A stretch of DNA of 64,000 bases from Lentimicrobium sp. (GTDB lineage Bacteria > Bacteroidota > Bacteroidia > Bacteroidales > Lentimicrobiaceae), in the NCBI GenBank assembly GCA_019429275.1, contig JAHYJC010000005.1, forward strand, positions 1 through 64,000, read 5' to 3'. The notes beneath the pieces were generated by a model. It was given only the letters and a program-made list of their open reading frames with translations. It did not search any database and was not told where the DNA came from. Shown here piece after piece: positions 25,288 through 37,400 of this stretch. Positions within the stretch are counted from its first letter, which is position 1, and the number at the start of each line of letters is the position of its first letter. The translations under genes were made by a program, and so were the position numbers.

Positions 25288-25698
25288 TCAGGAAAAATTG
25301 AAAATCACTGTTTGCTTAAGATCAGCATGAAGGCTTTGTGAAACCGGACAAATTTTGGCACACTGCCTGATGATTTGTTTTTGTTTTTCGGAATAATTAT
25401 GATCCGGAAAATCAAGTTCAACAACGACTTCACCCACCCTGCGCGGGTCAGAGGCCATTATTTTTGTGACTTTTGCTTTTGTTCCTTCAATGCTGAACCC
25501 TGAATTATTGGCGGCTATTCCCATGATGGTGATCATACAAAGTCCGAGTGAAGTAGCCAGCAAATCTGTTGGAGAAAATGCCGATCCTTTGCCGTTATTA
25601 TCCACAGGCGCATCAGTAATTATTTCGACTCCTGACCGTAAATGTGTGGCTTTAAGTTGTAAATCACCTAAGTATTCGAGGGTAGCGGTGGTATCCAT
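25288..25698 (-). CDS. OsmC family protein
   Basis: SPTDLLATSLGLCMITIMGI and C-terminal CPVSQSL. ATG at 25698 (MDTTATLEYLGD) is preferred because the ORF-track start at 25746 runs into a terminator hairpin. Confidence 0.88.
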   Translation of the reverse strand: MDTTATLEYLGDLQLKATHLRSGVEIITDAPVDNNGKGSAFSPTDLLATSLGLCMITIMGIAANNSGFSIEGTKAKVTKIMASDPRRVGEVVVELDFPDHNYSEKQKQIIRQCAKICPVSQSLHADLKQTVIFNFS

Positions 25699-25733
25699 GG
25701 TTTTTTCCTGCAAAGATAAGCGCATAAAATGAA

Positions 25734-25760
25734 AAAAGCCCGGCAATTTGCAGGGCTTTT
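25734..25760 (-). terminator. Terminator for the Cys-rich small protein gene
   Basis: AAAAGCCC-ggcaatttgca-GGGCTTTT. Confidence 0.75.
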
Positions 25761-25780
25761 AGTTCAGATACTGAATTTTG

Positions 25781-26107
25781 TTATTTTACATCAGGCGCAG
25801 AAACAGCAGCTGTGGTCGCTCCACTCTTTTTGGTGTCGCGGTCACCGGCCGAAGCCTTTGCTGATTTGTCCTTGGCGCCGCATGATTTGCTGCAATCTGA
25901 TGATGAAGCCTTTGCAGATTTATCACCGCATGAACTCTTGGTTGCGTCAGCCTTAGCTGCTTTTTTTGTTCCATCGGGTGTCAGATCCTTATCAGCATTA
26001 AAATCAGCGGTATAAGTACTGACCTGATTTGCTGAAGCATCGCTGGTTACTCCCGAGTAAGCAAAAACGAATGCAAATACTGATAATGCAATTATTACTT
26101 TTTTCAT
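25781..26107 (-). CDS. Small secreted Cys/Lys/Ser/Ala/Asp-rich low-complexity protein
   Basis: MKKVIIALSVFAFVFAYSG signal peptide; internal repeat KSSCGDKSAKASSSD / KSCGAKDKSAKASAGD. ATG at 26107 preferred because the ORF-track start at 26134 falls in the predicted -7 box. Confidence 0.75.
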   Translation of the reverse strand: MKKVIIALSVFAFVFAYSGVTSDASANQVSTYTADFNADKDLTPDGTKKAAKADATKSSCGDKSAKASSSDCSKSCGAKDKSAKASAGDRDTKKSGATTAAVSAPDVK

Positions 26108-26131: not shown

Positions 26132-26139
26132 CAAACTTA
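26132..26139 (-). promoter_or_regulatory. Predicted -7 element for the Cys-rich protein gene
   Basis: Minus-strand TAAGTTTG (plus CAAACTTA), 24 nt upstream of ATG 26107. Confidence 0.6.
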
Positions 26140-26159
26140 GGCGTATTTATAGTACTGGT

Positions 26160-26198
26160 TTGTTAAGGAACAGTTAATAACTGTTAAGGGCCTGTTAA
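26160..26198. promoter_or_regulatory. Four direct repeats, candidate OmpR/PhoB-type response-regulator binding array
   Basis: TTGTTAA (26160), CAGTTAA (26171), CTGTTAA (26181), CTGTTAA (26192); start-to-start spacing 11, 10, 11 bp. Confidence 0.7.
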
Positions 26199-26227
26199 AA
26201 AAGACAATATTCAGCCATTGAAACCAG

Positions 26228-26235
26228 TATCTTTG
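26228..26235 (+). promoter_or_regulatory. Predicted -7 element for the histidine kinase operon
   Basis: TATCTTTG, 17 nt upstream of ATG 26253. Confidence 0.6.
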
Positions 26236-26252: not shown

Positions 26253-27581
26253 ATGAAAAAACATAGCATTCTACTCTTAATTTTAATTACATCCGTATCT
26301 CTTGCCGGTATAATATTTATACAAATATACTGGGTCAGGAATGCATTGCGCCTTCAGGAGGAACAGTTTGACAATAAGATACAGCTGACACTTAAAAGTG
26401 TGGTCAACCGGATGTTCGATGAACGTGGCCTGGTAGGAATTGATTCAACCGTTTGTGGCGAACATTGCGACCGCCGTACCTATAATGTACTCACCTCAGT
26501 TAATACCATTCGCCTCGACTCATTGCTAAACGAAGAGTTCGGTGGCATGGAAATTTCAAAAACCTATGCCTGGGGAGTTTATAATCCAGGCTGTGGAACC
26601 ATTTTTGCCGGTAATACCGGAAGCTATCGATCCGAACTTATTACTACCAACCATCATGTTTCACTTTCATGTCTTTACCAATCCGAAAAATTATTGCTGG
26701 GGGTTTATTTTCCTGCTGAGCGCAACATGTTGTGGTTGAACATATTTCCTTACCTTTTACTTGCCTTTGTTTTGCTGGGCATCGTAATTTTTGCTTTTTC
26801 CTACATGATATTTTCATTCCTGAAGCAAAAAAAACTTTCAGAAATGAAAAGCGATTTTGTCAATAATATGACACATGAATTTAAAACTCCTATTTCAACA
26901 ATTTCACTGGCAAGTGAAATGCTGTTAAAACCCGAAGTTTCTGAATCGCCCGCAAGAACAAGGCGATATGGAAATATCATACACGATGAAAATCTGAGGT
27001 TAAAGCAACAGGTTGAGCAGGTCTTGCAGATTGCCATACTTGATAAAGGCGAATACAGGCTTAGTCGCAAAGAATTTGATGCCCATGAAGCCTTAAAGTT
27101 GTGTATGAAGAATTTTGAGCTAACCATTCGCGATAAAGGTGGTTTTATGGGCAAAAAGCTCAATGCAACCCATAGTCATATTTATGCTGATTTTCATCAT
27201 TTTATAAATATGGTGAACAATCTTCTCGACAATGCTGTAAAATATTCTGAAGCTTATCCCGAAATTCAGATCATTACCAAAAACATTGGGGGTATGTTCG
27301 TTGTTGAAGTTCACGACAAAGGCATTGGCATAAGCAGCGAGAATATTAAATATGTTTTTAATAAACTTTACAGGGTGCACACCGGCAATATTCATGATGT
27401 AAAAGGTTTTGGGCTGGGTTTATATTATGTAAAGACCATGGCCGAAGCTATGGGTGGATCGGTAAAAGCCAGGAGTGAACTGAAAAAGGGTAGTATTTTT
27501 GAAATACACATGCCACTGCGATCTGAAAAAAATGTAAAATCTGAAGATCATGGATCAGAAAATGAAAATATTGCTGGTTGA
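26253..27581 (+). CDS. Sensor histidine kinase
   Basis: Two TM segments flanking a periplasmic domain; HEFKTPIS H-box; NLLDNAVKYS N-box; DKGIGIS and GFGLGLYYVK. Confidence 0.95.
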   Translation: MKKHSILLLILITSVSLAGIIFIQIYWVRNALRLQEEQFDNKIQLTLKSVVNRMFDERGLVGIDSTVCGEHCDRRTYNVLTSVNTIRLDSLLNEEFGGMEISKTYAWGVYNPGCGTIFAGNTGSYRSELITTNHHVSLSCLYQSEKLLLGVYFPAERNMLWLNIFPYLLLAFVLLGIVIFAFSYMIFSFLKQKKLSEMKSDFVNNMTHEFKTPISTISLASEMLLKPEVSESPARTRRYGNIIHDENLRLKQQVEQVLQIAILDKGEYRLSRKEFDAHEALKLCMKNFELTIRDKGGFMGKKLNATHSHIYADFHHFINMVNNLLDNAVKYSEAYPEIQIITKNIGGMFVVEVHDKGIGISSENIKYVFNKLYRVHTGNIHDVKGFGLGLYYVKTMAEAMGGSVKARSELKKGSIFEIHMPLRSEKNVKSEDHGSENENIAG

Positions 27582-28248
27582 AGATGATCACAACCTGAGT
27601 GCTGTGTTGCAGGATTACCTGGAACTTTTGAGTTATCATGTTACACTGGCGGCCGACGGTGAACAAGGCCTTGAATTTTTTAAGACACAACAGTTTGACC
27701 TTTGTATTCTCGATGTGATGTTGCCACGCAAGGATGGATTTACCCTTGCTGCCGAAATCAGAATCATCAATTCTCAATCTCCCATAATATTTCTTACTGC
27801 TTTAGGGCAGAGCGAAAACCGCATCAATGGGTTTAAGGCCGGCTGCGACGATTACATCATTAAACCATTTAGCAGCGAAGAACTTGCCCTGCGTATTGAG
27901 GCCATTTTAAAGCGGTGTATGAATCAGACTATGAGGCCCCGTTCTGACTTTTTTGATTTGGGAGAAATACGTTTTGATGCCGGAAATATGGTTCTGTTGA
28001 CAAAAGATAAAGAACAAAAACTCACACCTAAGGAAAATGCCCTGCTCAGGCTCCTGTGTATGAATAAAAACAATCTGCTTTCCCGCGATCAGGCGCTAAT
28101 CGAAATTTGGGGAGCAACCGATTATTTTTACGGCAGAAGCATGGATGTATTTATAACACGGTTGAGAAAATACCTGAAACACGAACCAAATGTTAACATA
28201 CAAAATGTCCATGGCTCGGGCTTCAAACTCGAAGTAAAAAATCAGTAA
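27550..28248 (+). CDS. OmpR/PhoB-family response regulator
   Basis: KILLVEDDHNLS receiver, CILDVMLPRKDG, winged-helix C-terminus (LTPKENALLRLL...DVFITRLRKYL). Overlaps the kinase 3' end. Confidence 0.96.
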   Translation: MDQKMKILLVEDDHNLSAVLQDYLELLSYHVTLAADGEQGLEFFKTQQFDLCILDVMLPRKDGFTLAAEIRIINSQSPIIFLTALGQSENRINGFKAGCDDYIIKPFSSEELALRIEAILKRCMNQTMRPRSDFFDLGEIRFDAGNMVLLTKDKEQKLTPKENALLRLLCMNKNNLLSRDQALIEIWGATDYFYGRSMDVFITRLRKYLKHEPNVNIQNVHGSGFKLEVKNQ

Positions 28249-34437: not shown

Positions 34438-37400
34438 CTATTCTGACAAGCCGTGGCAATTTTTATATTTTTTTCCGCTGCCACATGGACAAGGATCATT
34501 GCGGCCGATTTTTTTCTCTACCCTTATCGGGGCTGATACCTGTGGCTCTGATGTTCTTCCGGCCTGGCTGAGAAGGTCTGTGCGCTCTTCTTTAAGTTTA
34601 CTGGTATCGGTGCGGCGTGGCATTTGAGCTTCCCTTACCTGGGTTGATTCCTGGACTGGTAAATTAGCTTTTACGATAAAAGAGGTAATGTCTCTGTTTA
34701 CTTTTTGCAACATCGACTTAAAAAGTTCAAACGATTCAAATTTATATATGAGCAAGGGATCTTTCTGCTCGTAAGTTGCATTTTGAACCGAACTGCGAAG
34801 TTCATCCATTTCGCGAAGATGGTCTTTCCAGGCATCATCAATCACACCAAGGGTAACTCCTTTTTCAATGGCAAGGGTGATTTCGCGTCCTTTGTCATTG
34901 TATGCTTTTTTCAAATTTGCTACCACCTGCATGGTCTTAATTCCATCAGTAATTGGTATAGCAATATTTTCATAGCGAGGATGATTTTCATAAACATCCC
35001 TGATAACCGGATGAGCTCTTAGTGCAAGTTGGTCACTTTTTTTGCGATAATTTCCATAAACCCGGTCAAACAGTTCGTCCACGAGTTGTTGTTTGTTGGC
35101 AGAGTTAAATTCATCGGCTTTCAATTCTGGCTCAACAGCAAAGGTTTTTAACAGTGATATCTGATATCCTTCGTAATCGCGGTCTTCGTGATGGGTAGAA
35201 ACTATATTTTCACAAACATCATAAATCATATTTGAAACATCCACGGCCAGGCGTTCTCCATAAAGGGCATGCCGGCGTTTACTGTAAATAACTTCGCGTT
35301 GCGAGTTCATTACGTCGTCATATTCCAAAAGGCGTTTACGGATGCCGAAGTTATTTTCCTCAACTTTTCGTTGCGCCCGCTCAATGGATTTTGTGATCAT
35401 GGAGTGCTGAATAACTTCCCCTTCTTTGAGGCCGAGGCGGTCCATAATTTTGGCAATCCTTTCCGATCCAAACATTCGCATCAGATCATCTTCGAGCGAA
35501 ACAAAAAACTGTGAACTTCCCGGATCTCCCTGTCGTCCTGAACGTCCGCGTAACTGACGGTCAACCCGCCTGGACTCATGCCTTTCAGTACCGATAATGG
35601 CAAGGCCGCCTGCTTCCTTCACATTTTTTCCAAGCTTGATGTCGGTTCCACGACCTGCCATGTTCGTTGCAATGGTTACTGTTCCGGCCTGACCTGCTTC
35701 AGCAACTATATCGGCTTCTTTCTGGTGGAGTTTGGCGTTAAGTACATTATGTTTTATGTTTCTCAGTTTCAGCATTCTGCTGAGTAACTCCGAGGTTTCA
35801 ACTGATGTGGTACCAACCAATACCGGTCTTCCTTTTTTTATCAGATCAATGATTTCATCAGCAACGGCATTGAATTTTTCGCGTTTGGTCTTATAAACCA
35901 GATCTTCCCTGTCATTCCTGACAATTGGCCGGTTAGTAGGAATAACAACTACATCAAGTTTATAGATATCCCAGAGCTCACCAGCCTCGGTTTCGGCAGT
36001 ACCAGTCATACCAGCAAGTTTACGGTACATTCTGAAGTAATTCTGAAGGGTAATGGTGGCGTAGGTCTGGGTTGCAGCTTCAATTTTCACATTCTCTTTT
36101 GCCTCAATGGCCTGATGAAGACCATCGCTGTAACGCCTGCCTTCCAGAATACGTCCGGTTTGCTCGTCAACAATTTTGATTTTGTTGTCCATTACAACGT
36201 ACTCAACATCTTTTTCAAACAAAGTATAGGCTTTAAGAAGTTGATTTACGGTATGAACACGTTCTGATTTTACAGAATAATCGCGCATCAGTTCGGCTTT
36301 TTTCTCAATTTTTTCATTATCAGGGATTCCTGATTTTTCCATGTCAGCAATCTCAGCACCGATGTCGGGGAGGATGTAAAATTTTGGATCGTCGTATGAT
36401 GCGGTGATAAGGTCAATCCCTTTTTCAGTAAGTTCAACAGTATTGTTCTTTTCGTCGATTACAAAAAACAGCTCATCATCAATAAGATGCATATTTTTTG
36501 ATTGCTCCTGCATATAGAAATTTTCAGTTTTCTGCATCAGGGCACGCATGCCTGGCTCACTCAGGAATTTGATGAGTGCCTTGTTCTTGGGCAGTCCACG
36601 GAATGATCTGAAAAGTTGTTCTCCGCCTTTTTTTTCATTTTCGGGTGAAGCTCCTTCAGACAGTAAACTTTTGGCATCGGCCAGAATTTTGGTTACCAGG
36701 TTTCGCTGTGCTTCATATAATTTCCTTATTTCAGGCTTTAGCTGTTCAAATTCCTGATTGTCGCCTCTTGGTGTTGGCCCTGAAATGATGAGGGGAGTTC
36801 GTGCATCGTCAATCAACACTGAGTCAACCTCATCCACAATGGCATAGTTGTGAGGCCTTTGTACCATCTCTTCAGGATTTCGTGTCATATTGTCACGCAG
36901 GTAATCAAATCCGAATTCATTGTTGGTGCCAAAGGTGATATCAGCGAGGTAAGCATTGCGGCGGGCTTCAGAGTTGGGCTCGTGTTTATCTATGGTATCT
37001 ACTTTCAATCCATGAAATTCATAAAGTACCCCCATCCATTCCGAGTCGCGTTTTGCCAGATAATCGTTAACGGTAACAATATGTACCCCTTTGCCGGAAA
37101 GGGCATTGAGGTAAACAGGTAAGGTTGCAACCAGCGTTTTTCCTTCACCTGTCGCCATTTCGGCAATTTTTCCGTTGTGAAGTACAATACCACCAATCAA
37201 CTGTACATCATAATGAACCATATCCCAGGTAATGAGATTGCCTCCGGCCGTCCATTTATTGTGGTAGTAAGCTTTGTCGTCAATTATGTCGATATGTGCT
37301 TTGGTTGTGGCCAGGTCGCGGTCCATTTGGCTGGAAGTTACCTCTATGGTTTCATTATCCTTAAATCGCCGGGCAGTTTCTTTTACAACGGCAAAGGCTT

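Follow-up and report, generated by a model that had tools for sequence, protein, structure and literature searches.

In enterobacteria, the gene of the small envelope protein CpxP and the CpxRA kinase-regulator operon are divergent, with the sites of the regulator between them. Housekeeping promoters of Bacteroidota have the -7 consensus TANNTTTG and TTTG as the -33 element. SaeR of Staphylococcus aureus, a member of the OmpR family, has the proven site GTTAAN6GTTAA, and sites of this form mostly activate (PMC5083920). Two of them are present in the sae P1 promoter, which is autoinduced and drives SaeP and SaeQ, accessory proteins of the envelope that feed back on the kinase (PMC5083920). PhoP of M. 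tuberculosis, another OmpR-family regulator, binds repeats of 7 bp separated by spacers of 4 bp (PMC4832192). For RprY, the closest named family to the regulator considered here, the RprY papers searched give no DNA site, nor does the HaeR paper.

The array under study is located in a window of 64,000 nucleotides (the whole stretch of DNA analysed), between a small secreted gene and a divergent kinase-regulator operon (Table 1). Four direct 7-mers, TTGTTAA (26160), CAGTTAA (26171), CTGTTAA (26181), and CTGTTAA (26192), have start spacing of 11-10-11 bp, and their common core is GTTAA at 26162, 26173, 26183, and 26194. The array can be written as two GTTAA-N6-GTTAA pairs with N5 between them. 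A preliminary description of this DNA had given the same 7-mers, positions, and spacing, as well as the -7 boxes on both strands, and direct reading confirmed them.

The array resembles the SaeR site in half-site, 11-bp repeat, direct orientation, and the presence of an OmpR-family regulator, and both pairs match that site perfectly. It differs in that the lineages are unrelated, the regulator is no SaeR ortholog, and the pairs are joined as 11-10-11 and serve two divergent promoters of the Bacteroidota type. The layout, with repeats between a small envelope gene and a two-component operon, is that of CpxP/CpxRA, but gene order and half-site are different and the small protein has no CpxP domain according to Pfam and NCBIfam. 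The locus would work like an autoregulated divergon of the SaeR/Cpx type, with a regulator that, by the tests made, is a member of neither the SaeR nor the RprY family.

Regulator, kinase, and flanking genes

The regulator has both a receiver and a winged-helix Trans_reg_C domain, as members of the OmpR/PhoB family have. Its score in the RprY model NF051850 is 286 bits, under the curated cut-off of 370, and another regulator of the same genome scores higher (327.7 bits); it is thus most aptly described as a paralog of RprY. SaeR identity was rejected, as the match to the SaeR DNA-binding domain reached an E value of only 4e-5, and ArlR and PhoB structures matched this domain better. The recognition helix is conserved as RSMDVFI(T/A)(R/K)LRKYL.

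The regulator gene overlaps the 3' end of the kinase gene. In the extracytoplasmic domain of the kinase (window 26253-26780), Cys72 and Cys140 are conserved and Cys68 is often present, which suggests thiol or metal sensing. An AlphaFold model of the sensor (pLDDT 79) has no significant match in PDB. The small protein has a signal-peptide-like N-terminus with an ASA cleavage motif and no match in Pfam or NCBIfam. Beyond its gene on the divergent side, an OsmC protein and then a thioesterase-like protein are encoded. The OsmC-family gene (window 25288-25746) adjoins this kinase in most relatives, and the small gene, where present, sits between the two. A terminator scan from the small gene to the OsmC gene found none, although an inverted repeat GCCC..GGGC is visible at about 25737-25762.

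Table 1. Features of the divergent locus, in window coordinates
Feature	Position	Strand	Remark
Gene of small secreted Lys/Cys-rich protein	25781..26107	-	108 aa counted from ATG
-7 element TAAGTTTG of small secreted gene	26132..26139	-	TANNTTTG at fixed distance in 25/25 four-box loci
Box pair 1, GTTAA-N6-GTTAA, small-gene side	26162..26177	+	Read directly; perfect in 25 loci
Box pair 2, GTTAA-N6-GTTAA, kinase side	26183..26198	+	Read directly; 5 bp past pair 1
-7 element TATCTTTG of kinase-regulator operon	26228..26235	+	29 bp past last box
Membrane sensor histidine kinase, 442 aa	26253..27581	+	HisKA and HATPase_c
OmpR-family response regulator	27550..28248	+	Response_reg (PF00072) and Trans_reg_C (PF00486); presumed array binder

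Conservation and position of the array

Related loci were collected solely by kinase or regulator homology, and the 700-bp upstream regions of 48 distinct kinase genes were compared and scored for the array out of 20. Conservation of the spacing, on which the preliminary description had staked its reading, was found: a perfect 20/20 array at 11-10-11 is present in 25/48 loci, always on the kinase strand, and these loci span the genus and many other families, with the genus members being related and their counts not independent. The best shuffled score was 16/20 against the observed 20. Distances between GTTAA on the same strand peak at 10, 11, 21, and 32, with counts of five or fewer at every other distance. 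The boxes keep every base, both within the genus and in other families, whereas the spacers and flanks vary; among other families, the boxes have a pairwise identity of 1.00, the spacers of 0.41, and the flanks of 0.42 and 0.28. At all 25 loci, direct repeats about one helical turn apart are located upstream of a promoter, as in operators of the OmpR/PhoB type.

The preliminary description had proposed a genome search for paired repeats. Allowing up to two mismatches, a single copy of the four-box pattern was found in the 4.19-Mb genome and none in its backward control, which together with the shuffled scores argues that the array is not due to chance. Single GTTAA-N6-GTTAA pairs are not enriched (25 versus 67 in the control), so the signal resides in the array plus its position. 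That the repeats are no operator, being a tandem repeat of chance or neutral origin or an element acting at the RNA level, has next to no probability. GTTAA is AT-rich and common, and single pairs are not enriched, but in one family after another four perfect boxes keep their strand, their spacing, and their distance from the promoter at a score that shuffled sequences do not reach, and this conservation already contradicts such an origin.

A wide regulon was also considered and rejected, as scans of the own genome for single pairs and for a -7 box with a pair gave nothing above chance besides this site. With one perfect array and unenriched single pairs, the circuit looks like a local one on these scans. 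The perfect array is found in only 7/397 genomes of the phylum, the own genome counted. In three genomes of the same class (G088, G147, and G373; L208, L209, and L196), it precedes a gene of a DegQ/HtrA-like protease, with a -7 box 27-28 bp away. In three others, from one distant family (G335, G343, and G402; L205-L207, L198, and L199), perfect arrays precede genes for proteins with secreted-looking N-termini, and several have a -7 box at 22 bp; G335 holds three such arrays.

The -7 consensus of the Bacteroidota housekeeping promoter is present and conserved on both sides of the array. The -33 element TTTG is absent from both: on the minus strand, where it had been described as unrecognisable, CAAA is read over 26162-26159 instead, and on the plus strand CAAT at 26205-26208. 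Box 1 covers the -33 position of the small-gene promoter. Between the minus-strand TANNTTTG and the first box, the distance is 22 bp in 24/25 arrays; the remaining array has 23 bp. On the kinase side, the plus-strand TANNTTTG is located 26-29 bp from the last box in 14/25 four-box loci (seven genus members at 29 bp and seven other loci at 26-27 bp). For the other 11, it has a different position or none was detected within reach, and in several of these the kinase gene has moved off.

The divergent gene of the small secreted Lys/Cys-rich protein is present at nearly every four-box locus (at L018 the contig ends first), and among the homologous loci the array was seen at none found to lack it. 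In the genus, the small gene was found in 13/19 genomes (E 1e-4), as a single copy in each and at this locus only. Five of the six genomes where it was missed (G002, G003, G007, G008, and G009) are the members without an array upstream of the kinase; in the sixth, G011, the array is present and the copy of the small gene has diverged. At four loci (L003, L005, L009, and L010), the kinase starts 225-434 bp from the array, but the distance to the small gene remains 54-65 bp. As the array stays by the small gene when the kinase moves, it is anchored chiefly to the small gene. Judged from these positions, it is first of all the putative operator of the small gene, and that of the kinase operon too where both genes are near.

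Reduced forms of the array also occur. Five orthologs with the same recognition helix have no array (L014-L017 and L019), a point against the operator reading given below, and about ten loci carry one perfect pair only. No divergent Cys-rich gene was seen at eight single-pair loci (L025, L026, L027, L030, L036, L048, L049, and L051), and a kinase -7 box is 26-28 bp from the pair in seven of them, with none seen at L027. L075 likewise carries one pair, at 28 bp; the ORF that a script flagged there overlaps the OsmC gene and is not taken to be the small gene. Three further loci (L023, L042, and L054) have degraded arrays, in which 41-43 bp separate the minus -7 box from the pair that survives.

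Proposed mode of regulation

Quite probably, the array is the operator of the adjacent OmpR-family regulator, which would bind it as two dimers and activate both promoters in a local circuit. The dimers would lie head to tail on the same helix face, one per GTTAA-N6-GTTAA pair, and the bound regulator would activate the promoters on either side, each with a -7 box and no recognisable -33 element. The small-gene-side pair would substitute for the -33 element of that promoter, and the kinase-side pair would act 26-29 bp upstream of the -7 box of the kinase operon. Besides its own operon, the system would induce a single secreted Lys/Cys-rich protein. That protein may be the output, buffering metals or thiols, or it may feed back on the sensor as a partner.

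The preliminary description had already assigned the array to the adjacent regulator, as controlling its own operon and the small gene. The conserved 11-10-11 spacing, the fixed -7 distances, and the co-occurrence with the small gene support this assignment; it is amended in that the array belongs chiefly with the small gene, occurs once per genome, and has the half-site and pair spacing of the SaeR site.

Activation is less certain at the small-gene promoter than at the kinase promoter because the repeats point away from the former, and the coverage of its -33 region by a two-pair site would also allow repression. A regulator that represses one or both promoters from the same operator, with relief by the signal, is nevertheless unlikely. 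Box 1 on the -33 position and the direction of the repeats are in its favour, but both promoters are without a recognisable -33, as expected of activator-dependent promoters, and activation is the usual effect of SaeR sites of this form (PMC5083920).

The sister system RprXY

The RprXY-like paralog operon of the same genome (G000:C24, about 36300-36410; L174, about position 1428) has its own GTTAA array, with spacing of 10-10-10 and a degenerate box 2. It shares with the window array the half-site and the promoter distances of 22 and 29 bp. The two arrays differ in spacing. The divergent gene at the RprXY-like array encodes a glucose-6-phosphate isomerase-like product in three of the genus loci read.

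In the 18 genomes with both systems, scores for the window-type operator are 20 at 11-10-11 and 14-15 at 10-10-10, whereas the RprXY operator of 17/18 genomes scores 17-20 at 10-10-10 and 12-16 at 11-10-11; the exception is G057, with 15 and 13, respectively. The recognition helices are nearly identical (RSMDVFI in the window regulator versus RSMDVYIAKLRKYL in the paralog). This hints that a difference in spacing, 11-10-11 versus 10-10-10, separates two sister regulators that share such helices and the GTTAA half-site, a conceivable if somewhat doubtful reading. Counter-examples are RprX-like systems with an 11-10-11 array in G035 and G037, the latter alongside a window-type system but with GGTTAA boxes, not TGTTAA. 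Among genomes with an RprY above the family cut-off, the 10-10-10 array is present in three (G023, G024, and G031), and in six (G020, G036, G038, G042, G045, and G047) none was found within 260 bp.

The same comparison bears on which regulator occupies the window array in vivo. The near-identical helices and the GTTAA repeats in the paralog's own promoter would fit binding by another regulator of the RprY clade, such as the paralog at G000:C24, in place of the adjacent one. This is very improbable, as in 17/18 genomes each system keeps to a spacing of its own, and the adjacent regulator is the likelier binder.

Related arrays were seen beside further kinases. A third kinase-regulator pair (L202, G010:C50; L203, G012:C45; and G004:C46:904) has a longer array with a mixture of GTTAA and GTAAA boxes. 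L202 and L203 have a divergent secreted DUF1573-like protein and a minus -7 box at 22 bp. A distant kinase system (L204, G053:C18) has a near-perfect four-box array and a divergent secreted Lys/Cys-rich protein of its own.

The array provides a candidate DNA site, readable from sequence, for a Bacteroidota regulator clade without a site in the papers searched. The sister regulators, with the same reading head and promoters set apart by one base of spacing, represent a clean natural experiment in how each stays off the promoters of the other. If spacing does keep them apart, the spacing of half-sites would be the code by which two-component systems of Bacteroidota are insulated after duplication. 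The locus also brings to attention a widespread family of secreted Lys/Cys-rich proteins with no name yet, tied to one sensor.
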